Notes under the pieces: generated by a model
The model's database searches: none
What the model saw: the letters and a program-made list of their open reading frames with translations, nothing else
Told to the model about the DNA's origin: nothing
Program-made: the position numbers and the translations under genes
In this document: piece after piece, positions 7,523-38,729 of the stretch
Numbering within the stretch: the stretch's first letter is position 1
Layout of the letters: every line of letters starts with the position of its first letter
Virus record (IMG/VR): IMGVR_UViG_3300029319_000068
Location: 1 to 53,236 of that record
Origin: a virus
Strand: one strand, 5' to 3'
DNA length: 53,236 nucleotides

Positions 7523-10500
7523 TTATTCGTTTACTTTAGCATAACCATCTTCTTTGTTAATGATTATTTGCTTATCTACAATATCTTTTAAGACTTCTAA
7601 GTGTGAAATAAGAAAGATTGTTTTAAACTCGCTTTTAATTATATCCAAAATGCGAATAAATCCTTCCATATTTTCTTCATCAAGGGCTGTTCCTGGTTCG
7701 TCAAGGATAAATACATCTCCTTTTGGCAATGTAGAGACATTTAAAAGAGCCAAGCGAATAGCCATAGCTGCGATTGTCTTCTCTGCGCCTGAACCCATCT
7801 CAATAGGACGTGCCTCGTACTTAGGATGTTTGATTAAAATATCAAGCTTGTTGTCGTCATTTTCAAACATAACCTCAAACTCAACCACGTTAGATAAAAT
7901 CTTTTGTATTTCTTGGTTAAGAATAGGTAGGCTTTGTTTGATTAAGTCATATGCAATGCCGTTTGAATGGACACACTTCATATACAAGTCGTAAGTTGAA
8001 AAGCTCTTGTTTAAAGTATCATGTTCTTTCTGCTCAAGTTCAATTTGTTTGTATTGTTGTTCTAGAGAGCCGTTTGCTTTGTAAAGATCAAGAAGATCTT
8101 CTGATGCTTTTTCTACTGCAATCTCATTTGTTGAGACGATATGTTTCAGCTTCTTCTTTTCCTTTACAAGAAATTGAAGGTTTTCAATAGCATCCTTGTT
8201 CTCTTCGTATTCTTCTCTTTTTTCTATTAAGTTGTTAAGATCATTATTGATCTGTAGGGATCTTGTCTTGTTCCGTTCAATATCTAATCTAATATCTTTA
8301 ACTTGTTTTTCATATTTGTTCTTTTTCTCTTTTGCCTTTATATATCCGTTGATTCTTTCAATATTCTTATCGTGCTCTAAGTTATCTAATTCGGCTTGTT
8401 TTTGCCCTTTTGAGAGCTTTAGCTCATTTAAAGCCACCTTGGTATTCTCTAGTTGAGAAGATGCGTTATAGGCGTCTTTAATGAACTTGCATGAGGAATA
8501 TTTTGGACCACAAGGAACCTCATTTAAAAGAGATGCTTTTTTGGACTGATTGTTGAACTTTATTTCCAAAACTTCGATATCTCTTGAGAAACTATCAAGC
8601 TCTGAAATCATATCCTCGCCAAACTCTTTGTTTTTTAAAGCATCCTCAATATCAAATACTTTTTGGAAGTTTTCAAACTTCTTTACAAACTCAAGCTTTT
8701 CGGCAATTTCATCCATATAATCTTTTTCTTTGTTTGAAATGCTGTCAAGTTCTTCTTTCTTTTCTTTTATTTCTTCTAAGACTTCTTGGATTTCGATTAT
8801 TTCATCTGGTATAGAGTTAATCTTTGTTTCTAAAGCTAATATGTTTTCTCTAAATCCTAATGTAAGTTCTTTAAGGTCTTCATTTTCTCTTTTTTTGATA
8901 TCAATCTTTGTTTCGCTTAAAGCAAGTTCTTTTCTTTTTTCTTTAAGTTCTGTTACAAAATCTCTATCCTTCATCTTTTTGAGAGCAACCCTCAAATCAG
9001 CAGCGTCGTCTTTTGCTTTTTTAAACTTCTTCTCAAAGACTTCCAAGTCAAGAAACTTAGCAAGAATTTCTTTACGCTTTGTCGAGCCTTCGTTGATGTA
9101 AGCAAGAGACTCTAACTGAGAACCCATAGAAGTTAAAAGAAAGTCTTCTATTGAACCAAAGACAGAACGAATGTTTTTGTCTGTTTGCGCTCTTGTATCG
9201 CCATTAAGAGGTGTTTCTTCGCCTGTAATGTTATCTACCTTGTAGAACTCAATATTTGTCTTGGCTTCTGTTGTAATGTTGCCTTTAAGTTTCTTTTCGT
9301 ATTTCTCGCTTGTTCTTTCAACATGATAAGTGTCAGTTCCAATATCAATACTGACGCTTCCTCTTCCGTTTTCTTTATTCTGGTTAATAATATTGAGGTT
9401 TTTCCTTTCATTCTTGGAGGTTGTGTTGAACAAAGTATAAAGGAATGAATCAACAATAGAAGATTTACCAGAAAAATTCTTGCCAAAAATACCTACTGTT
9501 CCTTCTAGATTATTGAAATCAATAGTATTTGCTTCTCCATAGTTAAAAAGATTGTCCCACTCAAGACTCTTCACAGACCAGTGAACGTTGCGACTTACCT
9601 CTTCTTCTTCTGTAACGAGTTTATTATACTTCTGGTTTAAAGCGAAGATTTGTTGCAGTGTTTCTTCTTCAAGTTCATAGTCCTTTAAATAATCTTGTAT
9701 AAGACCTTCTTGAACTTCTACACTTCGCAAATCGTCTTTAAAGACTGTATTAGATGCGTCGTCTCCACCTTTTCTGTTGCCGACAACTTTAGAATGAAAA
9801 TTGATTGTCTCTGGTTTATACTTTGTCTTCGCAAGTTCAATCGTTCGCTTGATTATGTCCATAGGAAGATTAACTTCTGTTACAAGACGTAACCGGCACC
9901 CTTCTGGGATCTTTGCTTTTGCTGGTATCTTGCCTTTCTTTGTAAGGTTGATAGTGACAAAGGGCTTTGGGTTTTCTAATGCGTAGTGTTTTACTTTAAA
10001 AGTATCAGCATCTTTAATGTCCCAAAGAAGAAATCCTTTTTCTTCTGATTCTCCAAAGTTTTGTTGCACAAGAGAACCAGCATAGCGAATACGCCCTTCT
10101 TTATCTAAGGGTTGATTAGGCTTGTGAATATCGCCAAGAAGAGCATAATCGTATTCTGTAAGGCGATCTAAGTTAATGTCGCCGTGGGTCATTGTCCAGC
10201 CAGTAGAAGTTTGAACACCAGCAACAGAGCCGTGGAAAAGAGCGATATGTACTTTATCCATGTCTGCTGGGAGTGTCCAATTTTCTTCGTCTACAATGGA
10301 TAGGACATGAAAACAAAAGTTATTGCCTATGTCCACTTCCGCAGAATATTTGTGAAAGTGAATGTTAGGGTGGTCCAATGCCGCAACAAGGGGGGAAACG
10401 GCATCTATCTTGGAGAGATTACGAAGGTTTAGATCGTGGTTCCCCAAGATAATATGATAGGGGGCAATATCAGCCAACCTCTCAAACATTCTAACCGCCA

Positions 10501-10675
10501 TATCAAAATAAGACGGGCTAAGGTTAAGTTTAGTATGAGCAGTATCGCCTGTGTTCACGATAAGGTCAGGCTTTAGTTCCTCTAGTTTTGCGTAGAGTTG
10601 TTCAAATACCTGCTCGTATTCGTAGTGATAGCGATAGTTGCGAATGTGAATATCGGAAATATGTGCAATCTTCAT
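7523..10675 (-). CDS. Fused Mre11-Rad50 (SbcD-SbcC; T4 gp47-gp46) recombination nuclease
   Basis: One 1050-residue chain joins two proteins that are separate in T4 and bacteria. Residues 1-370 are a calcineurin-type nuclease with metal motifs DIH (8-10), TGD (Asp44), GNHD (Asn79, His80), FHG (His148) and GDIH (His184). Residues 371-1050 are an SMC-type ATPase with Walker A GKNFSGKSS (about 398-406), a long coiled coil, a hook region with Cys722 and Cys729 (six residues apart rather than the usual CxxC), signature MGSGAEK (960-966), Walker B VFILDEP (988-994) and His1025 of the H-loop. All catalytic motifs are present. The complex processes DNA ends for phage recombination. The gene has no ribosome site but a sigma70-like promoter immediately before it. 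Confidence 0.93.
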   Translation of the reverse strand: MKIAHISDIHIRNYRYHYEYEQVFEQLYAKLEELKPDLIVNTGDTAHTKLNLSPSYFDMAVRMFERLADIAPYHIILGNHDLNLRNLSKIDAVSPLVAALDHPNIHFHKYSAEVDIGNNFCFHVLSIVDEENWTLPADMDKVHIALFHGSVAGVQTSTGWTMTHGDINLDRLTEYDYALLGDIHKPNQPLDKEGRIRYAGSLVQQNFGESEEKGFLLWDIKDADTFKVKHYALENPKPFVTINLTKKGKIPAKAKIPEGCRLRLVTEVNLPMDIIKRTIELAKTKYKPETINFHSKVVGNRKGGDDASNTVFKDDLRSVEVQEGLIQDYLKDYELEEETLQQIFALNQKYNKLVTEEEEVSRNVHWSVKSLEWDNLFNYGEANTIDFNNLEGTVGIFGKNFSGKSSIVDSFLYTLFNTTSKNERKNLNIINQNKENGRGSVSIDIGTDTYHVERTSEKYEKKLKGNITTEAKTNIEFYKVDNITGEETPLNGDTRAQTDKNIRSVFGSIEDFLLTSMGSQLESLAYINEGSTKRKEILAKFLDLEVFEKKFKKAKDDAADLRVALKKMKDRDFVTELKEKRKELALSETKIDIKKRENEDLKELTLGFRENILALETKINSIPDEIIEIQEVLEEIKEKKEELDSISNKEKDYMDEIAEKLEFVKKFENFQKVFDIEDALKNKEFGEDMISELDSFSRDIEVLEIKFNNQSKKASLLNEVPCGPKYSSCKFIKDAYNASSQLENTKVALNELKLSKGQKQAELDNLEHDKNIERINGYIKAKEKKNKYEKQVKDIRLDIERNKTRSLQINNDLNNLIEKREEYEENKDAIENLQFLVKEKKKLKHIVSTNEIAVEKASEDLLDLYKANGSLEQQYKQIELEQKEHDTLNKSFSTYDLYMKCVHSNGIAYDLIKQSLPILNQEIQKILSNVVEFEVMFENDDNKLDILIKHPKYEARPIEMGSGAEKTIAAMAIRLALLNVSTLPKGDVFILDEPGTALDEENMEGFIRILDIIKSEFKTIFLISHLEVLKDIVDKQIIINKEDGYAKVNE

Positions 10676-10681
10676 GCGTAT

Positions 10682-10709
10682 ATTATAATCACTATTTGCA
10701 GTTATTCAA
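10682..10709 (-). promoter_or_regulatory. Sigma70-like promoter predicting a leaderless mRNA for the Mre11-Rad50 gene
   Basis: On the minus strand TTGAAT (10704-10709) and a perfect TATAAT (10682-10687) are separated by 16 bases. Six bases lie between the last T of TATAAT and the ATG at 10675, so the expected start of transcription falls on the A of the start codon. No Shine-Dalgarno sequence precedes the gene, consistent with a leaderless transcript. This host-type promoter differs from the CTATTTA motifs in front of virion genes and suggests early or middle expression. Confidence 0.6.
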
Positions 10710-10717
10710 GAATTAGA

Positions 10718-10804
10718 TTATTTAGGTTTCTCTTGGTTGGCTTTTTTGCGAGCTTTCTGTTTTTTTACGACTTCTGACCCACCTGGCCATTTAAGTTCGT
10801 CGGG
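10718..10804 (-). other. Open frame without its own start, continuing in frame after the 123-aa MKITK gene
   Basis: Directly after the TGA at 10805-10807 the same frame stays open for 28 codons to a TAA at 10718-10720. It encodes a protein-like, strongly basic peptide beginning PDELKWPGGSEVVKK and ending NQEKPK. No ATG, GTG or TTG occurs in it. It could be reached by stop readthrough, by a frameshift at the T-run GGTTTTTAC near 10828 combined with a second shift, or it may be the remnant of a broken C-terminus. A 22-codon ATG frame in another register (10724-10792) lacks a ribosome site and is less convincing. Confidence 0.4.
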
Positions 10805-11176
10805 TCAAATGTGTGGCTCGTAAAAACCGTCTTCTTCTTCAAGAGGTTCTTCTTTTTTAGAGCCGCCTTCGACAGCGCCGCCTGCCATAGCAGACATTTC
10901 TTCAAGTTCTTCTTCTTCTTTCATCATGCCTGGTAGAGATTGATAAAGTTTTCGTAAGATTATCTTTGATCCTCTTACATTCGCGGAGTGAGAGACTATT
11001 TTATCAAGCAAATTAGAGTATTCTTGCGGAGTGTTGATCTTCTCGATATGTTTCAATACCATCACTACGTCTTGAATCTTTGTATCATCTGGTGCTTGTT
11101 TTTCAGCGGGAGGGGCGGATCTTTGTCCTAATTCTTCTTTGATTATTTCTTTTAGTCTTGTCTTTGTGATCTTCAT
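10805..11176 (-). CDS. Possible capsid-targeted internal protein with MKITK leader
   Basis: 123 residues starting MKITKTRLKEIIKEELGQR, a lysine-rich amphipathic leader I associate with many aquatic-phage proteins of otherwise different sequence. It is similar in kind to the short N-terminal targeting peptides of T4 internal head proteins, which gp21 removes after a hydrophobic-x-Glu site; I-K-E at 12-14 would fit. The middle is helical (about 35-85) and the C-terminus is acidic, with EEMSAMAGGAVEGG. A GGAG ribosome site and a CTATTTA motif precede it. The targeting role is inference. Confidence 0.5.
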   Translation of the reverse strand: MKITKTRLKEIIKEELGQRSAPPAEKQAPDDTKIQDVVMVLKHIEKINTPQEYSNLLDKIVSHSANVRGSKIILRKLYQSLPGMMKEEEELEEMSAMAGGAVEGGSKKEEPLEEEDGFYEPHI

Positions 11177-11196
11177 AAAAAATTCTCCGTATTCTA

Positions 11197-11203
11197 TAAA
11201 TAG
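11197..11203 (-). promoter_or_regulatory. Candidate late promoter motif (CTATTTA), site 2
   Basis: Minus strand AACTAACTATTTATAG, preceded by a seven-A run. The predicted start of transcription, by -10 spacing, is near 11190, giving a leader of about 14 bases that contains the GGAG ribosome site of the 10805-11176 gene. This leader geometry supports a promoter role. Confidence 0.5.
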
Positions 11204-11222
11204 TTAGTTTTTTTCTTAAAGA

Positions 11223-12023
11223 CTAAGGAATCCCAACAGAAACATCAGGAGGAACTCCATTTCCATATAAAAAAGATATCTGGTCTGCTGTAAGCTCTAC
11301 ATCCCACATAGAAAGTTCATCTATGGCACCATCCCAAGAGTAAGGATAAGAAGCGGAGCCGTTATAGTTATATCCGATTGCTACGTTATGGCTTCCTTGG
11401 TTAATCTGTGAGGGAACAGCATTTCTCAAGTGAGTAGCGTCTTTTAAAGCGCCATCGATATAGATACGCATTCTATTATTTGCACCAGAATATGTTACCG
11501 CAACATGATGCCACTGATTCAAAGTAATTACTACATCATCAGTCTGAAGCCAGACGCCCGTGCCACCGGCAGGATGCTTCATAACTCCCCACCCTATTTT
11601 TCCATTCCCCTCACCTGAGCCGCCGTGACCAAGGAAAAAAGAATAATTTGATTCAGCGCCTTGCCCTGGCCATGCGGCGATTATATATTTAAAATCACTA
11701 CCAAAATCTTCTGAATATACCCACGCTGATATACTCATGGCAGTATTAGGTTTAAGCGTAGTGCTGGTTCCCAGATCAATATAGTCGGCGTTGCCGTCAA
11801 ATTCTACGGCATAAGGTCCGTTTTTGTACTTAGTAGACGTCCAAGAGGCATTACCTCCTAAAGTTCCGTTAAGATTGTTTCCAGCATTTGAAGAATCTGC
11901 GGCTGTTGTGCCTGATCCTTCGTTCATTCTTAAATAAACTACGGGTGGCGGTGTATAGATATCACTTTGATATTGAAGTTTTAAGTCACCTTGTACGGTA
12001 ACGTCACCATCTACTTGTGTCAT
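11223..12023 (-). CDS. LamG (concanavalin A-like) lectin protein, copy 1 of tandem pair
   Basis: 266 residues. The first 25 (MTQVDGDVTVQGDLKLQYQS) form a beta-type lead-in like those on tail-fibre or decoration proteins. Residues 27-255 are one LamG/LamG_3 jelly-roll: VVYLRMNEGSGTTAADSS, AVEFDGNADYIDLG, MSISAWVYS, WHHVAVTYSGANNRMRIYIDG and DELSMWDVELTADQI are the usual strands. Such domains bind glycans or proteins. The gene follows its paralogue by 13 bases; the two share near-identical first 60 and last 25 residues but differ in the middle. Position outside the main tail block suggests a separately expressed virion surface protein such as a head decoration or fibre tip. That is inference. 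Confidence 0.8.
   Translation of the reverse strand: MTQVDGDVTVQGDLKLQYQSDIYTPPPVVYLRMNEGSGTTAADSSNAGNNLNGTLGGNASWTSTKYKNGPYAVEFDGNADYIDLGTSTTLKPNTAMSISAWVYSEDFGSDFKYIIAAWPGQGAESNYSFFLGHGGSGEGNGKIGWGVMKHPAGGTGVWLQTDDVVITLNQWHHVAVTYSGANNRMRIYIDGALKDATHLRNAVPSQINQGSHNVAIGYNYNGSASYPYSWDGAIDELSMWDVELTADQISFLYGNGVPPDVSVGIP
11887..11933. repeat. 47-bp perfect direct repeat shared by the two tandem LamG genes, copy A
   Basis: A 47-base stretch starting TTTGAAGAATCTGCGGCTG and ending TTCATTCTTAA is identical to 12698-12744. It encodes the conserved LRMNEGSGTTAADSS segment near the N-terminus of each lectin. No synonymous differences occur across it although the gene centres have diverged, which suggests recent duplication or gene conversion. 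Confidence 0.9.
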
Positions 12024-12036
12024 TTTTTATTTTTTC

Positions 12037-12834
12037 CTATGGTATTCCGACAGAAAGATCTGGTGGGACGCCGTTGCCGTAAATGTAAGAAACTTGATCT
12101 GCTGTAAGCTCTACATCCCAAAGAGAGAACTCGTCAAGTGCTCCATCCCAAGAACGATGCATGGCACCGCTTCCATCAAGGTTCATGCCTAAAGATAGGT
12201 TAATGCTTCCTTGAGCGATTGAAGAAGGTGGAGTTGAAGGAGAGCCGCCAGCAGTGGTATCCACTAAAGCTCCATCTATGTAAAGACGCAATCGTGTATT
12301 AGCGCCAGAGTAAGTCGCAACCACATGATGCCAAGTCCCAGCGGTCATGACAACATCATCTGTCTCAATAAAAGTTCCAGAGCCTACATGTGAAGCTTGC
12401 ATTACATAAAAGCGCACTTTTCCGTTTCCGTTGCCGTTCATTAATGTGTATGAATATTTTGGAGATCCCGCGCCGGATTGCCATCTTGAAACCATTCTTT
12501 GGTATACTTGCCCAAAATCATCAGCGAGTGCCCAAATAGAGAGAGACAAAGCTGTATTTGGAGCCAATGTTGTGCTGTTACCTAAGTTAATAAAATCAGA
12601 AGCACCATCAAACTCAACAGCGTAAGGTCCGTTCTTGTACTTGCTGGAGGTCCATGAAGCATCGCCTCCTAGTGCTCCATCAAAACCGTTACCTGCTTTT
12701 GAAGAATCTGCGGCTGTTGTGCCTGATCCTTCGTTCATTCTTAAGTAAGCCACTGGTGGTGGTAAGTAAATGTCGCTTCTATATTGAAGCTTTACATCAC
12801 CTTGGATAGTAGCGTCTCCATCTATTTGTGTCAT
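12037..12834 (-). CDS. LamG (concanavalin A-like) lectin protein, copy 2 of tandem pair
   Basis: 265 residues with the same plan as its neighbour: lead-in MTQIDGDATIQGDVKLQYRS, then one LamG jelly-roll (about 27-255) ending TADQVSYIYGNGVPPDLSVGIP. By eye roughly 60 percent of residues match the downstream copy, concentrated at the two ends and in core strands such as WHHV.ATYSGAN.R.R.YIDGAL. Residues about 105-150 and 190-225, which form surface loops in this fold, differ strongly and contain length changes. An AAGGGAG ribosome site precedes the ATG, and a CTATTTA motif lies about 45 bases upstream in the end of the primase gene. Probable virion adhesin or decoration protein. Confidence 0.8.
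   Translation of the reverse strand: MTQIDGDATIQGDVKLQYRSDIYLPPPVAYLRMNEGSGTTAADSSKAGNGFDGALGGDASWTSSKYKNGPYAVEFDGASDFINLGNSTTLAPNTALSLSIWALADDFGQVYQRMVSRWQSGAGSPKYSYTLMNGNGNGKVRFYVMQASHVGSGTFIETDDVVMTAGTWHHVVATYSGANTRLRLYIDGALVDTTAGGSPSTPPSSIAQGSINLSLGMNLDGSGAMHRSWDGALDEFSLWDVELTADQVSYIYGNGVPPDLSVGIP
12698..12744. repeat. 47-bp perfect direct repeat shared by the two tandem LamG genes, copy B
   Basis: Identical over 47 bases to 11887-11933. The repeat spacing (811 bases) equals the gene period. A further shared run of 23 identical bases (TCTGCTGTAAGCTCTACATC and the next three) occurs near the 3-prime ends of both genes. Confidence 0.9.
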
Positions 12835-12851
12835 TTTAAATGTCTCCCTTG

Positions 12852-13793
12852 TTAAAGACCAAGCGTCTTTTCCATAAGTAAATAGAATTTGTCTTCTACA
12901 AAAGAGGCATTTTCCTTTCTTTTTTTGAAGTCCTCGGGAGACATTTCCCCTACGTCGTCGTAATCATTTAGATTTATCTTGTAAACCTGGATACCGTATT
13001 TTAACAAAAGTTCTATTATTTTGTGCTCTTTTGCTTTTGCATCGGGGTCAAGAGCCATATAGACTGTTGTATCGTTTCTTACAATCTCGTGGAATAACTT
13101 GGATGTCTCACGGAGGGTTGAGCCTAGAAGGGGAACTGCGTTAGGTCCTGCGACGATTGCGTCAAATGCTCCCTCGACTATTGTTAGATCGTCCTCAAAG
13201 TCCAAGAAAAGGTGGTTAAAAACGATGTTACGGGATGCCTTGGGGTTTAGGTATCTTTTCCAGTGCCCATCGTAGGAACGGGCAATAAAGTAGTTGCTAT
13301 GACCATTTAAGGAAAAGGATGGTATGATGATTCGCTTGGCAAATTCTCCGTCTTCACAATAACCAATCTTCCATCTTATAATGTCGTCTTTTTTTATTCC
13401 TCTTTCTCGCAAGTAACGAAGGGCTTGTCCTGCTGAACGAGGAACGGCTTTGTTGGCTAAAGACTTAAACTCTTTTGGAAGTTCGACCCTTTGTTCTGGT
13501 TCTTCTTCCTCGATAGCAAACATCTTTTCTTCAAAAGAAGCAAGTTCGACTTTATTTACAAGTTCTGACCATTTCTTTTTGTGATATAGATCTCCATAGC
13601 GGCGGACAATCTTGGTTAAGTTTCGTCCTGACCAATCGCAAACCCAGCACTTCCAAGCATCCTTTTCTATGTTAATAGAAAGTTTGCGCTTGTGGTGTTC
13701 ACATTTAGGGCAGTGAAACAGCATTTCGGAACCGGAGCCGTAACAAGCCCCAAAGATATCCTTTATGATTGCTGTTTTTCTTCCTGTTGACAT
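12852..13793 (-). CDS. DNA primase (DnaG / T4 gp61-type) with zinc finger and Toprim domain
   Basis: 313 residues. A CHC2-type zinc finger lies at the N-terminus with cysteines at 28, 31, 49 and 52 (FHCPKCEHHK, WKCWVCDWSG). The Toprim core follows: IVEGAFDAIVAGPNAVPLLGS (about 203-225) supplies the catalytic Glu, and VYMALDPDAKAKEH (about 246-259) the Asp pair. The enzyme makes RNA primers for lagging-strand synthesis. Length is close to T4 gp61 (342). There is no fused helicase. The gene overlaps the resolvase by 31 bases, so the two are co-expressed. Position inside the late gene stretch is unusual for a replication gene. Confidence 0.9.
   Translation of the reverse strand: MSTGRKTAIIKDIFGACYGSGSEMLFHCPKCEHHKRKLSINIEKDAWKCWVCDWSGRNLTKIVRRYGDLYHKKKWSELVNKVELASFEEKMFAIEEEEPEQRVELPKEFKSLANKAVPRSAGQALRYLRERGIKKDDIIRWKIGYCEDGEFAKRIIIPSFSLNGHSNYFIARSYDGHWKRYLNPKASRNIVFNHLFLDFEDDLTIVEGAFDAIVAGPNAVPLLGSTLRETSKLFHEIVRNDTTVYMALDPDAKAKEHKIIELLLKYGIQVYKINLNDYDDVGEMSPEDFKKRKENASFVEDKFYLLMEKTLGL
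12879..12885 (-). promoter_or_regulatory. Candidate late promoter motif (CTATTTA), site 3
   Basis: Minus strand AAATTCTATTTACTTATGG, inside the last codons of the primase gene. A start of transcription near 12872 would give the copy-2 lectin gene a 38-base leader carrying its AAGGGAG ribosome site. That would let the lectins be expressed late and independently of the primase. The flanking sequence is less A-rich than at the best sites. Confidence 0.35.
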
Positions 13794-14299
13794 TGTATAA
13801 GCCCTGCTTTAGCAATAACCCAACTATCTGCCTTGTCGTAACAATGAGGCTTGATATTGTTTTGCTTTGTATACTCTATTTGAATTTCTGGGACATTATC
13901 TAGAATGTGCTGTATAACAACTTGTTTTGCTTTTGTTCCTCGTGGAACTTTAATGCCGCATAGCTTGCGAGCAGAAGTCGCAGCTAAGTACTGTGGCTCA
14001 ATCTGCAATATTCGATATACCAGCCATGACACCACCCCATTAAAACGAGCGAGAGTTGACAGAGTTTTAGCCGACGAGAATCCAGATCTGAAAGACTGGA
14101 GAGATTGCTCAATATATACTCTTCTGATTCCGAAGCCGTTATTATGAAGCTTTTTAATGTTCTTCTCAACATACTCTACCTTCTCGAAAAAGTTTTTGTA
14201 TTTTCGTGTGTCCCATGCATCATTATAAACAAGAGTTCCGTCTTTTTCAAGTATTGTTACTCCTGTAATGCTGGTTGAAATGTCTAGGGCTAAAATCAA
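13763..14299 (-). CDS. RuvC-type Holliday junction resolvase
   Basis: 178 residues with an RNase H-like resolvase fold. Metal ligands visible are Asp6 in MILALDISTSITG, Glu64 in VYIEQSLQSF, and Asp155/Asp158 in HCYDKADSWVIA, the order expected for RuvC-like enzymes. It would cut branched recombination intermediates before packaging, the job done by endonuclease VII (gp49) in T4. The start codon is TTG (14297-14299); no ATG is available near the conserved first strand. Its C-terminal codons overlap the primase start by 31 bases in another frame. Confidence 0.85.
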   Translation of the reverse strand: MILALDISTSITGVTILEKDGTLVYNDAWDTRKYKNFFEKVEYVEKNIKKLHNNGFGIRRVYIEQSLQSFRSGFSSAKTLSTLARFNGVVSWLVYRILQIEPQYLAATSARKLCGIKVPRGTKAKQVVIQHILDNVPEIQIEYTKQNNIKPHCYDKADSWVIAKAGLIQCQQEEKQQS

Positions 14300-17609: not shown

Positions 17610-17652
17610 TATTTTATCTCCTTGTATAATTAGACATTACACACACTTTTTA

Positions 17653-17659
17653 TAAATAG
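17653..17659 (-). promoter_or_regulatory. Candidate late promoter motif (CTATTTA), site 4
   Basis: Minus strand AATAAAAACAACTATTTATA in the 82-base gap before the 16680-17609 gene. This is the clearest A-tract version. Predicted start of transcription is near 17646, leaving a leader of about 37 bases ending in AAGGAGATAAAATA before the ATG. The extended core CAACTATTTA is shared exactly with the site at 29522-29528. Confidence 0.55.
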
Positions 17660-17691
17660 TTGTTTTTATTCATTTGTAAAAGTTTTTATTA

Positions 17692-20382: not shown

Positions 20383-23300
20383 TTAATAAGAGCCGCCCAT
20401 GCCGCCGCCTCCAGCGCCGCTGTTGAAGCCATCACCCGTGAAGCCTCCCTCAACGCTCAGAGTGGTGCCAAGTTTTTTGCTTTTTTCATTTGCCTTTTTA
20501 CCTTTGGATAGACCACCTGCGCCTAAATTCTCTGAGTCAACGTTATCCATAGTTTTCTTATGCTTTGACATTTTATTAAAATCTTTTATCATCTCATCGC
20601 CGCCTTTGTAATTAGGCAAATAAGTAAGCTCCTTCATAGAAGCTAGAATAAAATACTTATCATATATGGGAAGTTCAACAGAACTATTTCTTGTAACTCC
20701 AAGTTTCTCATTAACATAGTATTTTAGCCTACATAATACTGGCTTATCGGTAGACTTTATCATGTTAAAGACATCTAGTGTTAGCTTGTTCCAAATAAGT
20801 CCTTTAATATCGTTAGAACCAGACGATACTAAATATTCTATCTGAACAAGATTAAAGTAGTTAATAAAAATACCAAAATCGTTTTTACCAGTTGCTAGAT
20901 CGCCTATGTTTTCTATATTTTTTTCAAAAAAGTTTAAGTTATCTTTTAGATAAGTTGTGTCTACTCCTGTATCCTCTGGACTAGGGTCTAATGTGATTAA
21001 CTGTTTAAAATGATTTGGTATTCCTTTAAGATCGTTTTCGTTTAAAGGAAGAAATCCATTTCCTCTTAGTGCTTTCAAGAATGTTGGAAACTGTTTAAAT
21101 AATTTAATATTATCTTTTTTGTTGTCTGCGTTTGACATAAAAAACAGCGCGTCATTGTAGTTTGGCTCTTCTACAAACTCTGGAGGGACTTGTTTTTCTT
21201 CATCTAGTTCTAACTGAGGTATGACAGCCTGAACAAGGGGACCATCGTTCTCTATTAATTGCTGCACAAGGGATTCTTTTGCAGGTATACCTTCTGTTGC
21301 AGCAAGTCCAAATGACAGACCCTTAGCGGATAAAATATTAGTCAAGAGTGATTTTTGTGATTGAGTAGTGTTGTTCTTGTTCAATAACATGCCAGCGTCT
21401 TGACCTGTCAAGAGTTTTTTTATTATTTCTAGATAAAAACTATTCAAAGCTTCATACTGTATGTTTACAGGAGAAGGTTGGGAATTATAGTTGGGGTCTT
21501 CAGGTGAAATAAATGGCAGTGTTGTTATCTTTCCTGACTCTGGCATTTTTATACAAGAAGGCGAGAGAAACGTATATTTATCCTCTATTAAGTTAGATTC
21601 GAATTCAACCCCTTTATTTCGGTAATATAGTTTAATTGGTACTGTCGCAGTTTCATCTGTAAAATACTTTAGATTTTCGGCAAGCGCTCTCTCTTCAAAA
21701 TCTAAATAAGATATTCTTTTAATACCTAGCTTTTGTGGCAGTTCTGATTGTACTCCATAAGATAGATATTCATAGCCACTGTTTCTCATACTAGCGTCAA
21801 ATATTTCACCAAAATAAGTCTCTCCATCTAAAAAGGCTGTTTGCTTTGAAGATTTAACTCCTGAAGGGCTGTATGCGTTCGTCCCTGAGTCTGATATTGC
21901 AGATACACTTTTCAAAGAAAAGATAGACAATATTTTTTCCAAAAACTCTTCAATCATATTGATAATAAACTCTAGTCCATCTGGGGTTCCTGTATTTGGA
22001 GAGGAGATGTTTAGCAAGTTCTCCAAGAAGCCCTCTTTTTTGACACTATTAGTGCTCGTAACTAAAGAGTACATTTGATTAAATTTAGAAAGCAGATCAG
22101 GAATAATGCCAAAATACTCATCGTTTTGTTCTTCTTTATAAAGCTTCGTGTATGTGTCAGATACAAGATTGTAATATTGAGGCTGTGTAGAAATAGTATA
22201 TAATTGTTTTGCAAGCTTTAAGGATGTCTCCAAGCTTCTTATTTTCTTTAAAATTAGTTTTTTTAATGTATCCTCAAAAGTAAACTTTATTCCGTATTGA
22301 TAAAAGCCATCAGATATATCTCTCATAGATTCGTCGTATCCACTGAAAAAACAGTATTCATATCCGGGTGCTCCTCCTAACTCGATAGACAGCTTAGTAA
22401 CGAGTCCGGTTTTAGGAGAAGAATAACCCCGTTTGGCGATTTTTTGAACTGGAATATTTTCATCAAAAAGATTAGTGTCATCAATAGCTTTCACTCTTTT
22501 TCTCACGATTGTTAAGCTTTTGAAAAATTTGCTTATTAATAAGGAGTGTTTATCTTTTTTAGAGAGATTCTCCCATAACTTAGAATATTGAGAATACTTT
22601 ACAAGCAATGCTCTCATGTCAACGCCAAAGCAGAAGTTAAGTCTATTGTCCATATCTCGTGATGCCCAAAAATCAGTATGGAATACAGTTCCGTCTGCTA
22701 TCTTTTGATTTTTGAATTTTTCCTCTGTTATATCTTTTGCTGAGAAAAGCTTGTTTGCTTCAGAAAAATCTATATCTAGTTTGTCTACCACATCTCTTTG
22801 TCTAAAGTCTTGTATTGTAGTGTTGGTTGCTTTCACTTCTGTTAAGAACATGTCCTCTTCGCTGTCTACCGAAGCAAGCCCTTCAGCATGAGTCTTACCT
22901 TTCATTGGAATGCCAACCATATTTGCCAATTGGTCTTCCCTAAGAGCAGCTACTTGTTCTGCTGAAACAAGCCCCTCTTCTGGAAGGTTATACATGAAAT
23001 GAATATCACCAAGCCATACCGCATTATTTCTATCGACATAATAGTACGCATCTGTGATTGTTTTTCCATCCTTGATAACAAACTCGAAAGCTTTTTTGCC
23101 AGTCAAGTGTTTGTTTAGACCTGGAATATTTCCAATATCAATAGAAGGTTCAAAAGAGTCTTCAAAGAATTTCTTATCGACGTTAGCAACAACAAAGTAT
23201 GCCAAGTGATTAACGTTTGGCTTTTCAACGGTAAAAGTAGTAGAGAATGTTATATTATATACTCTTTGTCCTAAATCATTTGTTGTGTATTCGTAGGAGT

Positions 23301-23964
23301 TAAAGCGATTGGGGTCATATTTAATCTTAGTTGAGCCCATTTGGTGTCCTGGGCTTGTCTCTCCTTCTCCATTTGAGGGATATATTTCTCCTAAGTTTAT
23401 TGTTTTTAAGGAAGTTTTTCCTGGGACATTCGCCAGTCCAAACCATCCAGCATCTACAGCAGGGTCTATAGAATCCAGGAAGTCTGTAGATTTTACATCC
23501 GTTGATTGAACAATAGACAAATTAATATATTCCTTTAGCTTTTCTTCATTAAACCAGTTAGATAAAAGTTTGTTTTCTATTACATCTTTTACAACCAAGT
23601 CTACTCTTACCGTGAGTGTTTTATTGTTTTTACCAGGATCATCATTAGAGTAAGTTGAAATGCCAGTTTTCTTTTTTTCTGCACCGTAAAGACCAGAGTA
23701 TACTGATTCGTACAGGGTCGTTTGTCCAAGTTGCATTTGCCCACCTAGACCGTCATTTCCAAGTGGATCTATAGTAGGAGAACCTATTTGCTGTTGAGCT
23801 ACATTTGCCTGATACTGTTCTTTTGTTGGTATATCATAATGAGGACTGTCGCCACGGACTGTTGTTGTTTGAGTACCGTAGCTCAACATAATCCTGCTGA
23901 TATAAACATTAGGAACAAAATCCCCTAAAAGAGTTGCGTTGTCTATTGGTAATGTCATTCGCAA
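20383..23964 (-). CDS. Very large virion structural protein with glycine-rich C-terminus
   Basis: 1193 residues beginning MRMTLPIDNATLLGDFVPNVYISRI. The ATG overlaps the end of the upstream gene by 10 bases. The body is alpha/beta with a long Lys-rich helical section near residues 570-650. The last 40 residues are low-complexity (KGKKANEKSKKLG, then GGFTGDGFNSGAGGGGMGGSY), a flexible tail that may mediate assembly. There is no recognisable catalytic site. Size and neighbours suggest a baseplate or tail component; I cannot assign a T4 equivalent. Confidence 0.65.
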   Translation of the reverse strand: MRMTLPIDNATLLGDFVPNVYISRIMLSYGTQTTTVRGDSPHYDIPTKEQYQANVAQQQIGSPTIDPLGNDGLGGQMQLGQTTLYESVYSGLYGAEKKKTGISTYSNDDPGKNNKTLTVRVDLVVKDVIENKLLSNWFNEEKLKEYINLSIVQSTDVKSTDFLDSIDPAVDAGWFGLANVPGKTSLKTINLGEIYPSNGEGETSPGHQMGSTKIKYDPNRFNSYEYTTNDLGQRVYNITFSTTFTVEKPNVNHLAYFVVANVDKKFFEDSFEPSIDIGNIPGLNKHLTGKKAFEFVIKDGKTITDAYYYVDRNNAVWLGDIHFMYNLPEEGLVSAEQVAALREDQLANMVGIPMKGKTHAEGLASVDSEEDMFLTEVKATNTTIQDFRQRDVVDKLDIDFSEANKLFSAKDITEEKFKNQKIADGTVFHTDFWASRDMDNRLNFCFGVDMRALLVKYSQYSKLWENLSKKDKHSLLISKFFKSLTIVRKRVKAIDDTNLFDENIPVQKIAKRGYSSPKTGLVTKLSIELGGAPGYEYCFFSGYDESMRDISDGFYQYGIKFTFEDTLKKLILKKIRSLETSLKLAKQLYTISTQPQYYNLVSDTYTKLYKEEQNDEYFGIIPDLLSKFNQMYSLVTSTNSVKKEGFLENLLNISSPNTGTPDGLEFIINMIEEFLEKILSIFSLKSVSAISDSGTNAYSPSGVKSSKQTAFLDGETYFGEIFDASMRNSGYEYLSYGVQSELPQKLGIKRISYLDFEERALAENLKYFTDETATVPIKLYYRNKGVEFESNLIEDKYTFLSPSCIKMPESGKITTLPFISPEDPNYNSQPSPVNIQYEALNSFYLEIIKKLLTGQDAGMLLNKNNTTQSQKSLLTNILSAKGLSFGLAATEGIPAKESLVQQLIENDGPLVQAVIPQLELDEEKQVPPEFVEEPNYNDALFFMSNADNKKDNIKLFKQFPTFLKALRGNGFLPLNENDLKGIPNHFKQLITLDPSPEDTGVDTTYLKDNLNFFEKNIENIGDLATGKNDFGIFINYFNLVQIEYLVSSGSNDIKGLIWNKLTLDVFNMIKSTDKPVLCRLKYYVNEKLGVTRNSSVELPIYDKYFILASMKELTYLPNYKGGDEMIKDFNKMSKHKKTMDNVDSENLGAGGLSKGKKANEKSKKLGTTLSVEGGFTGDGFNSGAGGGGMGGSY

Positions 23965-24998: not shown

Positions 24999-27900
24999 TT
25001 AGTCTTCAAATGCCTTCTTTTTTGGTCCAAACTCTATATCTACTTCCATTTTAGCCAATTCGACAAGTGAGAAAAAGTCATATGGCCAGTTATAACTATA
25101 TTCTGGGGCTTTTTCTTCGTTGCCAAACTTAAACTTAAACCTTTGATCGTCTTCTGCATCTGCTGTTACTGCAAAGTAGCTTTTTTCAGCCTTTCTCTTG
25201 ACTTTAAATAGCATCCACCGAGTTGTGTTTGGTAATCTTTTTCCTCCAAAGAACTCTGTATGCCCTGCTTTATGAGAAACAATAACTTCATCTTCTTGAG
25301 CCGTTCTGGATATTTCCGGCATCAAACCTTGCCAGATATCTGTTAGGTCTTGCTGGGTTAAAGAATGCTCAAACTCAAAAATATACATAACAAAAGGCTT
25401 AAGGTCTGGGAATGTAAGGAAATCAAACTGAGGAGGTAAGTTATATTTCTGCATCTTATTGATCATATTGACAATAGATTCGGCAGAAGTCTGTCCAGCA
25501 CCAAGGACCGCTTCTTCGGGAGGTACTCCCTCTTGGCTTAGTTTTAAAGCTTGATTGTAGGTTCCTATTGGTATCCTAAAGAATCTTTTATCGGTCTCAG
25601 GGTACTTTAAGGTTGTTGCGTTGCCTGGTTTATGTGTTTCGTAGGTAAACGGAATAGCAATAATAGCTTCAGAAATGACTTTTTTATGGGCTGGTCTTCC
25701 AATACGCTTTTGATTTGTTTGGAAGCCGCAAATGTTTATTAAAGATCCTGTTAAAGAAGAATCAATAGTATTATTTGAACTCCTAAAAGTAAAACTTTCT
25801 TTAAGATCTAGCCAAACTCCTGTTGTGCCAGTTGGCAAAGTACCATAACCCCCCCACAAGCCTCTCCCCGTAGAGGCGCTATGGAAATCAGTAGAAGCAG
25901 AAAAGTTTAAAGCAGGACATTCAAATTTCGTTCCAATAGACCATGCGTCGAAAGAAAAGGCGTCTGTGTCTTCTATGCTAGTGGGTATGTAATTACCATC
26001 TGGACCTATGTTTGTTGAGTAGTTAACTTTTTTGTAGCGAGATCTTCCAAATAGATTAACAGAAGCGGATATGGTCATTTTTGCTTTTGATGCAATATCG
26101 TTTAGACCAAGCTTTACAGAAGAACCTGTATATTCGGTATTAATCTCTGCGTTTGATAAAATATCTCCCAACGTTGGTTGTCCAGAAGTAGTTGGTGTAT
26201 ATTTGATTCTTGCAATGGAGTCCTCGTAAAAATAAGGCGGTGTATATGGAGCATATGCAGGATCTCTAACATTAGAACCAACATTATCTGCATATGCGGA
26301 AGAAACAGGAGGTCCATAATAAGCCCCTCTTGTTTGACTAAAACTATAGTCTCCAGCCCCAGCAAGGGTTTGTCCTTCGGACAAGAGCATATCGCTAGTT
26401 TTTCTTATAACAACATCCATGTAGTAAGATTTTCCTGCTTCAACTGACTTAAACTGACCTTGCGGCTTGGATATGAAATCAGTAAGTTTTTCATCTTTTA
26501 AGAAAAATCTAGGTATTTCGCCAAAAAAGTTGTTAGCTGCTAGGGAATATATTGGAGAGCCATTACCTATAATTCCAAAAGAAAAAAGAGCGGTAGATAC
26601 ACTATCAAGTGGTTCGTCAATCGCTATTGTTTTTTGAATATAATCTCCTGCTTCTACCTCTGCTGATTTTAATATAGGAATGTAAGTTTCGGGCTGAATG
26701 ATCGTTTCAAATGGAAGCCTGTAGCTAGGTAGTTCTTCTTGTATAAACTTTACGCCGACGCCGAAGCCACCTGCGCTAACTTGATTGTCTCCTCCTACTG
26801 TCATGGGGGCAGATCCTGAATATACAGGATAATCTACTGCCAAAGCAGATTTAAAACTATTAAAAATTATTCCTGGTGATATTAATGGTCTTAAAAATGC
26901 ATTTAAATGCTGAGTGTATATCGATTGGGGTGCAACTAAGACCTGATCTCTTCGGCTTGAACCTGTAAGAGACGGGGCATACGATTGAGACAAAATAGTC
27001 CCTAACTGAAGGGCTCTTTGATGTGGATAAAATCCTTTATATGGAAGAAGCTTTTTTATTCCTTTCATTGAAAATGTATAGCTTTTAACTTCGCCTTCTT
27101 CTTGATGATCGTCAGCAACTTTTTGAAAATATTTGAGAAAATCAGAATGCGAGTATTCAATAAAGAAATTTTCATCAATACCTGGAGGTCTGGTCGATGG
27201 AACATTAATAGTATTCCTACCTCCTGTTGTAGACTCTTCTTGATCTGCGCTAGATGTAATGTTTCCCCCAATCATAGAAAGAAAAGCATCGTTTCTAGCC
27301 AAAAAATTTCCTTCTTTCTGTCTTACATAATAATCCATGTGGTCAGAAATACGAAACTCTGGTAAGATAGAGTAATCTTTACCTATACCTCTGATGTCTT
27401 CCGCGAAATCTTCATAGGAGTTGAAAAAAGGTTTCTTTCCTGATATCTGATCAGTGGCATATAAAGGTATGCCATAAAGAAACTTATCAGTTGGAGTTAA
27501 AGATGAATTTGCTGGGGTTCCTAGAAATCTATATAAAGATACAGATGCAGTACTATCAAACAATCCACCAATGGCAATTGGTGAGATTTGCTGACGTGAT
27601 AAGCCAGTCAGAAGCTCTCCAAATGGTGCTCGCATACCTGTCACTGCGCCAGAGGGCTCGGTTCCTGCTGTATCTAGCGACCATACGCTTTGAACTCGCA
27701 AAGTGGGAAACCCTTGAGAGTTTAAAGACACTTCGTTAGTTCTTAAGTCTCTATCTTCTAAATCATCTTTCCAGAAAGTTCTAAAATCTCTTCTATCATA
27801 ACCATTTGAACCTAAACCTGAAACTTCCGCATATTGGGTTCTTTTTCTTGCTTTTGCAAGGAAAGTGTTTTGTTGCTTTGGAAATACACATTCGGTATAA

Positions 27901-29513
27901 GTCATGTTGACCCATTTTTTAAAAGGAACATCCATTCCGTAAGGGTTTTCTTTTTCTTCTTCTTCGGTTAAGGCTTCGGCAAAGTTCTGAGCAACATCAT
28001 CAAAATCATAAGTAAATTTCTTATCGATGTATATTTCTTTAAGATCATCATAGATTTTTGTGAACTGCTCTGGAAAATCTCCATTAAACTTCAACCTTAT
28101 ATTGATCTTCTCATTTGTATAATGCTCTTCAAGATTTCCATAAGAATGCTTAAGATTTAAATTTACTAGCTCGCCATTTTGTTTTACAACAAACGAGTGT
28201 TGCATTGGTCTATGTTTGCTGGATACACAAGATTCAGTAAGGTTAAAGCCAACTGGATCTTCTGCGAATACAAACGGAAAAGGAGGAGTTCCATATGAAA
28301 ATATATAACCTGTTGATTGTAAAGAGCTTTTTTCAACATAAGAGAATATATTGTTTTTTCTGTGAACTCGATTTACTGGGTGGTTTCCTACACGGACTTG
28401 TTTCCAGCTTGGCCAACCATAAGGACCTTGACGGTGGAGGATAAGGGCGTTTAATACTTGCCCACCTTCAATATAAGAAGGACTGTTAGGGTCCGCAGCT
28501 CGTTGAATAAACGCTGAATTAATATAGCTTGATGTGTGTGGAGAATAACAATCAAAAGAAACCATTCTATTGCTTACTGTAGCGCTATTAGGAAAAGATC
28601 CATTATAGTTATTGCCCGAGCTATCGGCACCACTTAAGTCGTCCAGCTTGTACCAGGCAACCAAGCCGGTATTAGATATACCTACACCATTATTTGCCAG
28701 AGTGGGGCATCCATTATTATATAGAGATAGTGCATCGTCCGCAGACAACTCTCTACTCCAAAGCATAAAATTAGCCAGCTTGCCTTGGAATTCGTTACTA
28801 TTGTTTTCGCGCCCTCTTGCAAGATTTAATTTGGCGTCGGTGACTTCCATTGCAGTATAAGTGCCCGAACTGGCTCCGGTAGTACTAACTGATACGCCAT
28901 TAATATAAATTTTTATACCTGATGCCGACTCGTTGGCGTTATATGTGATTGTTACATGGAAGAACTCTCCTTCGTAAGCGCTCAAGCTGTTGGAGGTGTA
29001 CGCCTGAATATAGGTTCCTGCGCTATCATCATATAACCTAACCTTAAGAGTTCCTGCTGGTGAGTTCTGAATATAAATCTCATATTCGTAATTGGACGGC
29101 GATTGTTCACTTTTAGCAGCAATGTATTGATATGCTCCGCTTGTAAGGTCATCACACTTAATCCAAAAATTAACAGAAAAAACACTATCTTGCGAGCCGT
29201 TACCAAAGCTAAACGCTGTTTGGTTACCTGCATCAAAATATTGATCACTGCCGCTTACAAAGCTTACAGCCCCTTGTTGTGCTTGGAGTATGACAGGGAC
29301 AGACGCAGGATATCCTAAAGTATTAAAGGAAGAAGAGACAGCCTCTTGGATATTTGCATTGATTCCTACAAAATTAGTTGGGACAAATCCTGAGTTTGCT
29401 TTATCTTCATAAGTAGCGCCCCATACTCTATGTGCAGTTGCGTTGACGCTCGAAGAAGCCATATAGCTTCCAAAGTTACTTGCACTTACAAATGTTAAAT
29501 TCTCGTCGTTCAT
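24999..29513 (-). CDS. Large virion protein with N-terminal LamG lectin domain
   Basis: 1504 residues. Residues about 75-300 form a LamG/concanavalin A-like domain: VSFVSGSDQYFDAGNQ, FSVNFWIKCDDL, FFHVTITYNANES, GIKIYINGVSVSTTG, KLANFMLWSRELSADDALSLYNNG and LVAWYKLDD are typical strands. The remaining 1200 residues contain no named domain I can see, but long stretches (for example DFRTFWKDDLEDRDLRTNEVS) look like a conserved marine-phage structural protein. The lectin domain may be an insertion at the N-terminus for surface binding. The ATG is only 2 bases beyond the start of transcription predicted from the CTATTTA motif, and no ribosome site is seen. Confidence 0.75.
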   Translation of the reverse strand: MNDENLTFVSASNFGSYMASSSVNATAHRVWGATYEDKANSGFVPTNFVGINANIQEAVSSSFNTLGYPASVPVILQAQQGAVSFVSGSDQYFDAGNQTAFSFGNGSQDSVFSVNFWIKCDDLTSGAYQYIAAKSEQSPSNYEYEIYIQNSPAGTLKVRLYDDSAGTYIQAYTSNSLSAYEGEFFHVTITYNANESASGIKIYINGVSVSTTGASSGTYTAMEVTDAKLNLARGRENNSNEFQGKLANFMLWSRELSADDALSLYNNGCPTLANNGVGISNTGLVAWYKLDDLSGADSSGNNYNGSFPNSATVSNRMVSFDCYSPHTSSYINSAFIQRAADPNSPSYIEGGQVLNALILHRQGPYGWPSWKQVRVGNHPVNRVHRKNNIFSYVEKSSLQSTGYIFSYGTPPFPFVFAEDPVGFNLTESCVSSKHRPMQHSFVVKQNGELVNLNLKHSYGNLEEHYTNEKINIRLKFNGDFPEQFTKIYDDLKEIYIDKKFTYDFDDVAQNFAEALTEEEEKENPYGMDVPFKKWVNMTYTECVFPKQQNTFLAKARKRTQYAEVSGLGSNGYDRRDFRTFWKDDLEDRDLRTNEVSLNSQGFPTLRVQSVWSLDTAGTEPSGAVTGMRAPFGELLTGLSRQQISPIAIGGLFDSTASVSLYRFLGTPANSSLTPTDKFLYGIPLYATDQISGKKPFFNSYEDFAEDIRGIGKDYSILPEFRISDHMDYYVRQKEGNFLARNDAFLSMIGGNITSSADQEESTTGGRNTINVPSTRPPGIDENFFIEYSHSDFLKYFQKVADDHQEEGEVKSYTFSMKGIKKLLPYKGFYPHQRALQLGTILSQSYAPSLTGSSRRDQVLVAPQSIYTQHLNAFLRPLISPGIIFNSFKSALAVDYPVYSGSAPMTVGGDNQVSAGGFGVGVKFIQEELPSYRLPFETIIQPETYIPILKSAEVEAGDYIQKTIAIDEPLDSVSTALFSFGIIGNGSPIYSLAANNFFGEIPRFFLKDEKLTDFISKPQGQFKSVEAGKSYYMDVVIRKTSDMLLSEGQTLAGAGDYSFSQTRGAYYGPPVSSAYADNVGSNVRDPAYAPYTPPYFYEDSIARIKYTPTTSGQPTLGDILSNAEINTEYTGSSVKLGLNDIASKAKMTISASVNLFGRSRYKKVNYSTNIGPDGNYIPTSIEDTDAFSFDAWSIGTKFECPALNFSASTDFHSASTGRGLWGGYGTLPTGTTGVWLDLKESFTFRSSNNTIDSSLTGSLINICGFQTNQKRIGRPAHKKVISEAIIAIPFTYETHKPGNATTLKYPETDKRFFRIPIGTYNQALKLSQEGVPPEEAVLGAGQTSAESIVNMINKMQKYNLPPQFDFLTFPDLKPFVMYIFEFEHSLTQQDLTDIWQGLMPEISRTAQEDEVIVSHKAGHTEFFGGKRLPNTTRWMLFKVKRKAEKSYFAVTADAEDDQRFKFKFGNEEKAPEYSYNWPYDFFSLVELAKMEVDIEFGPKKKAFED

Positions 29514-38309: not shown

Positions 38310-38690
38310 TTAAGGAGCAACTATAATGCTGTCTCTCAGAGAGATACCGGGAACAGAGTAAATTATTCTTACAGCTAGTTCATTGTCATTTAATTGATCG
38401 TTGTCTGCTTTTGTTGCGAAGCTAATATCTTCTACTACTAAAAAACTCATAAAAGAGTTGACCTGTTCTCGTATGACGGAGTTTAATTCGTCAGCTATAA
38501 AAGATGGATCATTTTCAAACAAGTATCTTCTTATGCCGACGCCAAAATTAGGAATCATTACCCTTTCTCCCGGCGAAGTTAGTAATAGGTTTTTAAAATT
38601 TTGTTTTACATTTTTATATATATTGTTGATCATGTCATAATGAGCAACTGTTGTTGTAAGTGGTAATTTTACAGAATATCCTAAAGCCAT
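38310..38690 (-). CDS. 25: Baseplate wedge protein gp25 (GPW/gp25 family)
   Basis: 126 residues (T4 gp25 is 132). The motif LLLTSPGERVMIPNFGVGIR, then RYLFEN (36-60), and the following DELNSVIREQVNSFMSFLVVEDI are diagnostic of GPW/gp25. This small protein links the wedge to the sheath and seeds sheath assembly. A GAGG ribosome site sits before the ATG, and the CTATTTA motif at 38711-38717 is placed to start a 14-base leader. It is the first gene of the gp25-gp6-wedge run. Confidence 0.92.
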   Translation of the reverse strand: MALGYSVKLPLTTTVAHYDMINNIYKNVKQNFKNLLLTSPGERVMIPNFGVGIRRYLFENDPSFIADELNSVIREQVNSFMSFLVVEDISFATKADNDQLNDNELAVRIIYSVPGISLRDSIIVAP

Positions 38691-38710
38691 ACAATGAACC
38701 TCATCTAATC

Positions 38711-38717
38711 TAAATAG
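38711..38717 (-). promoter_or_regulatory. Candidate late promoter motif (CTATTTA), site 6
   Basis: Minus strand AAAAATATAAGCTATTTAGATTAG in the 39-base gap before gene 25. An A/T-rich tract precedes the core. Predicted transcript start near 38704 leaves a 14-base leader with GAGG as ribosome site, a geometry like site 2. Confidence 0.5.
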
Positions 38718-38729
38718 CTTATATTTTTA

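Follow-up and report, generated by a model that had tools for sequence, protein, structure and literature searches.

The stretch of DNA analysed here (the window, 53,236 nt) is a 53-kb virus record from an uncultivated tailed phage with genes for a portal protein, a large terminase and a baseplate wedge as well as late sigma-like, RuvC, primase and SbcCD-like genes, nearly all on the minus strand. By one structural gene, its nearest cultured relatives are Microcystis phage Mel-JY01, Flavobacterium phage immuto and Rhodothermus phage RM378, with 26–30% identity. Downstream of the primase-like gene follow, in this order, two tandem genes designated A and B with a 13-bp spacer, a small gene and the SbcCD gene (Table 1). 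An earlier note on this DNA took the tandem genes for two adjacent LamG genes, and this identification holds. Both products match the Laminin_G_3 profile PF13385 (gene A, E 1e-21; gene B, E 8.9e-26), the pair scoring 91.3 and 77.8 bits against a gathering score of 27.6. The match to Pentraxin PF00354 is much weaker, 29.4 and 26.3 bits, barely above 25.

An AlphaFold2 model of the gene A product built from a 93-sequence alignment reached a mean pLDDT of 86.6 and a pTM of 0.87; a model from just 7 sequences (pLDDT 38) was unusable. The predicted layout is an N-terminal stretch of ~25 aa of low confidence (the first ~22–25 aa, with pLDDT <50 at residues 1–5 and 18–22) followed by a LamG jelly-roll. 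Foldseek places the model among jelly-roll beta-sandwich proteins (E 1e-16, probability 1.00, against viral LamG-type proteins), several of the viral matches being named LamG/ConA-like. Matches in the PDB have the lectin-like fold in common with the model; the clostridial neurotoxin binding domains among them share only this fold and are uninformative on function here. PHROG matches of the lectin genes include the virion structural family phrog_8510 (E 2.5e-15), and the best match is a virion structural protein of the category head and packaging. A tblastn search against annotated phages returned no relative of gene A.

Table 1. Features of the window (positions in nt; identities in the remarks are to phage L005)
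Feature	Position	Strand	Remarks
SbcD/SbcC-like fusion	7523–10675	minus	phrog_77 + phrog_100; conserved downstream neighbour of the slot
Variable island	~10400–13100		identity 0.50–0.98 per 100 bp, mostly 0.97–1.00 outside
Small gene in island	10805–11176	minus	ORF, MKITKTRLKEIIKEEL start; body differs in L005
LamG gene B	11223–12023	minus	ORF, 266 aa; PF13385; orthologues in L005, L006
47-bp repeat, gene B copy	11887–11933	minus	exact match to gene A copy
Gene B 5' end (codons 2–14)	11983–12018	minus	quartet scan, p=3e-4
LamG gene A	12037–12834	minus	ORF, 265 aa; PF13385; allele class A1
Exchanged centre of gene A	12123–12553	minus	quartet site-pattern scan and AU tests
47-bp repeat, gene A copy	12698–12744	minus	codons 31–46; exact match to gene B copy
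Primase-like gene	12852–13793	minus	phrog_47, E 3.4e-37; conserved upstream neighbour of the slot
RuvC-like resolvase gene	13763–14299	minus	phrog_159/827
Divergence hotspot	20501–23500		inside giant ORF
Divergence hotspot	25501–27900		inside giant ORF
Third LamG domain	28695–29270	minus	in 1504-aa ORF 24999–29513, near baseplate genes
Fourth LamG domain	33945–34457	minus	in 1803-aa ORF 29538–34949; PF13385 E 2.1e-11, residues 165–335
Divergence hotspot	38501–44000		inside giant ORF

The genomic slot and the variable island

Close homologues of the lectins were found in four further IMG/VR phages, two genes each in L005 and L006 and one each in L004 and L016. As this gives only five carrier phages, including the window, few exchange events are sampled. 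The window and L005 are ~98–99% identical over most of the window (97–99% at the nucleotide level in the flanking genes), and such sharp divergence between otherwise near-identical phages places the island of Table 1 among hypervariable loci. Its limits are approximate; it spans the 5' end of the SbcCD gene to the 3' end of the primase gene. Synonymous difference between the two phages is 0.24–0.34 at the ends of gene A and 0.24–0.30 in gene B, against 0.03–0.12 in the flanks. The simplest reading is that recombination within core genes next to the island replaced all of it in either the window or L005, bringing in a gene A that was already mosaic. Phages L004 and L006 share flanking genes that are 95–100% identical except for RuvC (L004:4540–4926), at 85%; the replaced stretch in this pair extends into RuvC.

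The strongest drops in identity to L005 are four in number, one at the lectin pair and the others within three giant ORFs. In the giant ORFs identity falls to 0.67–0.93; these ORFs, of 1193–2196 aa with no family match or only one to LamG, are probably tail-associated. The third LamG domain lies in a stretch conserved between the window and L005, and the C-terminal half of its ORF varies. Ten other contigs of the group encode LamG domains, mostly inside ORFs of 770–4300 aa. Elsewhere in the window, a 983-aa ORF (46277–49228) resembles amidase PF01510 at residues 623–715 with 22.3 bits, below the cut-off of 26, and is possibly a lysozyme-like tail protein.

A search with the neighbouring RuvC gene yielded 57 loci; 58 loci were examined, and the whole RuvC–primase–SbcCD interval was readable in 53. 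LamG genes occupy the slot in four of the 53 readable contigs, plus the window. The order S891-S309-S381-S400-RuvC-primase-SbcCD is otherwise kept, the gaps holding various unrelated ORFs, among them HNH endonucleases, a carbamoyltransferase-like ORF, an Hsp20-like ORF and unknowns; in L023 (2351–4610), the Hsp20-like and carbamoyltransferase-like ORFs, named by eye, follow the primase gene. In Mel-JY01, the succession of large genes, primase-like gene and AAA (SbcC-like) gene is retained, with no LamG gene annotated between them. The lectins directly follow the primase gene in the window, L005 and L016 and lie between RuvC and primase in L004 and L006. Since few loci carry them, and in two slot positions, they are accessory genes that were gained or lost, or moved, more than once.

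The number of lectin genes per phage is 0, 1 or 2, and even the near-identical L004 and L006 have one and two, respectively; the copy-number change that the earlier note had foreseen is thus seen in relatives. An origin of the single genes of L004 and L016 as A/B fusions is rejected. Their bodies are A-type throughout, and only from the stop codon on do they continue with the sequence found behind gene B in two-copy relatives. This arrangement fits either a collapse by recombination in the common last codons or B having been inserted at this very position.

The N-terminal motif M(K/R)(I/L)TK..LK(Q/E)(I/L)IKEE(L) is present in 34 ORFs at 24 of the 58 loci, in proteins otherwise unrelated; carriers are the small gene of the window's island, L016, L019–L021 and L027–L073. 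It looks like a common tag, perhaps for particle packaging with later cleavage. The sequence ACTATTTAT is found on the coding strand at 11196–11204, 17652–17660 and 336–344 of the window (4 matches, 1.2 expected), the copies at 11196 and 17652 lying ~20–45 bp ahead of gene starts, and something similar is found before the first gene of the slot in L020 and L021; it is possibly a phage promoter element. Matches to the T4-type late promoter TATAAATA numbered 9 in the window for 5.4 expected, with 0 upstream of the lectins on their strand.

Old paralogues with exchange at the 5' end

The products of genes A and B are 62% identical. The earlier note had described a perfect repeat of 47 bases, near-identical ends and a diverged centre with length changes. 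The repeat is exact, the per-site comparison is far from uniform along the pair, and direct repeats of 300 nt and 131 nt (72–73%) bracket the diverged middle. The ends are indeed conserved, but near-identity overstates the case, with 47/60 residues shared among the first 60 (78%) and 23/28 among the last 28 aligned columns (82%). In the centre, identity is 17/57 in columns 101–160 and 8/20 in columns 201–220, with length changes of 3 and 2 residues. A consensus of 93 LamG relatives, which come from many bacteria, retains similar end motifs, and the protein conservation at the A/B ends is partly family-wide. Family-wide motifs do not account for silent-site identity within the 47-bp run.

Gene conversion had been proposed for both ends, and the two ends behave differently. 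Synonymous sites of A and B differ by ~0.5 in codons 1–60 and by 0.67–1.05 elsewhere, including the last 28 codons. When only codons encoding the same residue in A and B were considered and codon columns were shuffled, the identical run at codons 31–45 had a permutation p=0.0003, the lowest among 28 gene pairs. The low synonymous difference and this improbable run support A/B sequence exchange at the 5' end; in addition, gene B codons 2–14 track gene A rather than the B orthologue of L005. Conversion at the 3' end is not supported, with synonymous differences of 0.71–0.85, saturated like those of the centre, and because of this saturation the residues shared there are taken as kept by purifying selection.

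A recent duplication followed by diversification of the middle can be discarded, A and B types already coexisting in the distant lineage L006. The data indicate that A and B are old paralogues, under purifying selection within classes, and that the swapping of old allele classes has made gene A vary in its middle from phage to phage.

Exchange of gene A centres between lineages

The quartet site-pattern scan delimits an exchanged block in gene A at alignment nt 282–721, codons 94–241 (permutation p<=5e-5). At both ends of the gene, sites group the window with L005 and L004 with L006, according to lineage; within the block they group the window with L004 and L005 with L006, according to allele class. 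AU tests reject the allele topologies for the ends (p 0.002–0.006) and the lineage topologies for the centre (p ~1e-53 or less). Gene A thus belongs to the mosaic proteins, different parts of which support different trees, and the mosaic shuffling proposed earlier is borne out in relatives.

In the centre of gene A, DNA identity is 57% between the window and L005 and 60% between L004 and L006. The window and L004, with flanks of 53–59% nucleotide identity (RuvC, 77%) and synonymous differences of ~0.8 in most flanks, share a centre with 84% DNA identity and 90% protein identity (synonymous difference 0.48). Two centre classes can be defined, A1 (window, L004) and A2 (L005, L006, L016). Within classes, pS/pN is 0.48/0.06 for A1, 0.51–0.54/0.08–0.09 for A2 and 0.28/0.01 for B (window–L005); between classes, pN/pS is <1. 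As the protein is conserved within classes, the diversity reflects replacement of old alleles rather than recent positive selection visible in pN/pS. These patterns indicate that gene A has one history in its centre and another at its ends, that at least two old centre classes cut across phage lineages, and that the centres were exchanged by recombination at the conserved ends.

It was also suggested that the variation resides in surface loops of the jelly-roll. In the gene A model, A1 and A2 centres differ at 22/67 strand and 32/78 loop positions, and no enrichment in predicted loops over strands was detected (Fisher p=0.39 and 1.0). Because the differences fall on strands and loops alike, the simple variable-loop picture fails, and what is exchanged comprises more than half of the sandwich rather than a group of loops.

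Three other origins of this pattern deserve consideration. A and B could be plain LamG paralogues whose ends are kept as the fold core while the centre drifts, a view with which the end motifs recurring in LamG relatives from many bacteria, the low within-class pN and the between-class pN/pS <1 agree. Drift, however, can yield neither the 47-bp silent run nor a centre of 57% identity against a background of 98–99%, nor different trees for ends and centre at the observed p-values. We therefore consider this explanation very improbable; as a full account, drift alone is rejected by the topology tests, and it stays right for the protein conservation at the A/B 3' end. Chimeric contigs are a legitimate concern, all sequences being metagenome assemblies and assemblers being able to switch at conserved ends, yet the same pattern appears in two independent phage pairs, and the window gene A, with ends 10–15% different from L005 and a centre 16% different from L004, is not a join of the two. 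An assembly artefact is accordingly highly improbable. Finally, programmed switches such as a diversity-generating retroelement or an invertible cassette diversify targets of this sort, lectin-like folds that vary while their ends stay constant. Here, saturated synonymous sites and changes in length are among the differences, no match to reverse transcriptase PF00078 was found in the window, L004, L005, L006 and L016 records (some of them fragments), and the lectin region contains no inverted repeats; such a switch is almost certainly not at work.

With exchange of old alleles as the preferred explanation of gene A diversity, one may ask what keeps the alleles. A possible answer, offered tentatively, is a trans-lineage polymorphism, in which A1 and A2 are maintained in at least two lineages with core proteins now roughly 50% identical, each class being conserved by purifying selection and moved as an intact centre. 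They would be the phage equivalent of balanced allele classes, with host surface types exerting negative frequency-dependent selection and B as the more constant partner.

Possible role of the lectins and comparison with known systems

Genes A and B probably form an accessory cassette, present in some members of an uncultivated T4-like group of tailed phages, whose products are LamG lectins that stand alone and serve in host-surface binding by the virion, gene A having a swappable centre; virion location, ligand binding and host selection are what we infer here. Arguments for host recognition are that the divergence hotspots comprise the lectin pair and giant ORFs, that LamG domains occur in giant ORFs beside baseplate genes, and the phrog_8510 match. 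The position of the lectins next to replication/repair genes, just outside the tail module, and the lack of an assignable late promoter run counter to a virion role. In the proposed mechanism, a short conserved N-terminal tail would anchor the lectin to a phage structure and the jelly-roll core would preserve the fold. The ligand face would be borne by the exchanged centre, which makes up more than half of the protein. Homologous recombination in the first ~60–94 and the last ~27 codons would swap gene A centres between lineages, and such a swap, or the possession of two paralogues, could change or widen the host surface glycan or protein target of the virion.

The main rival to host recognition is that the lectins decorate the head or tail tube, Hoc-like in role, and mediate weak adhesion to the host surface or environmental polymers with host range unaffected. 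Their stand-alone, accessory nature with 0–2 copies, the different copy numbers in the near-identical L004 and L006 and the head-and-packaging category of the best PHROG match are compatible with decoration. The capsid genes show no link to the lectins, though, and the remaining divergence hotspots fall within giant tail-region ORFs; we regard decoration as unlikely. Alternatively, the lectins might act in or on the infected cell, as secreted or surface lectins, in superinfection block or in sugar binding, rather than as part of the particle. Their place among replication/repair genes and the varied cargo in the slots of related phages would agree with this, but the N-terminus (MTQVDGDVTVQGD...) lacks signal-peptide-like hydrophobicity and the other LamG domains of the group reside mostly in giant ORFs, making such action improbable.

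Two pairs of near-identical phages, the members of each carrying different classes of the gene A centre, with breakpoints at conserved codons and 0, 1 or 2 copies in one slot, constitute a natural experiment in how a phage alters its likely host-binding surface. If the lectins are virion adhesins, host surface types offer a direct test of the choice between A1 and A2, and the old question of balancing selection on phage recognition alleles can be addressed with existing metagenomic reads.

The T-even adhesin gp38 combines conserved and hypervariable segments. The lectins likewise have constant ends and exchanged, presumably binding segments, but no sequence relation is seen, the Pfam and PHROG matches comprising LamG-type families only and none of the gp38 family, and the genome position is different. 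Proteins of the same fold are found in Synechococcus phage S-SKS1 (M4QRQ0), Haloarcula vallismortis tailed virus 1 (L7TI36) and uncultured Caudovirales (A0A6J5NKQ5). Some are stand-alone and similar in length to A and B, but identity in structural alignments is ~17–24%. Pseudomonas phage pPa_SNUABM_DT01 carries five LamG genes with a predicted role at the host surface (PMC8541153). No tandem allele-swapping LamG pair is described in the literature consulted on these viral LamG proteins, and one literature search for LamG, tail fibre and diversification together found nothing.

Genes for lectin-like and carbohydrate-binding proteins rank with the most frequent ones of marine phage metaviromic islands, which are defined by under-recruitment of reads (Mizuno et al. 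2014, PMC3909814). In these islands and in the host-recognition cluster of pelagimyophages (PMC7029224), close relatives likewise differ at recognition genes. Here, the setting is replication and repair, the lectins form a paralogous pair, the allele exchange can be dissected, and the locus is known from assemblies, not from read recruitment. Phage receptor-binding proteins display domain mosaicism (PMC10684548), and tail fibres are common to distantly related Alteromonas phages (PMC10579305). The recent swap of a binding part across distant phages is shared with these systems, but the unit exchanged here is the interior of a single jelly-roll with conserved codons on both sides, not a whole domain or fibre module. 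There is precedent, then, both for hypervariable recognition loci and for mosaic receptor-binding proteins (PMC3909814, PMC7029224, PMC10684548, PMC10579305); new here are the stand-alone lectin pair, its slot among replication genes, the centre classes extending across distant lineages and the mapped boundaries of the exchange.
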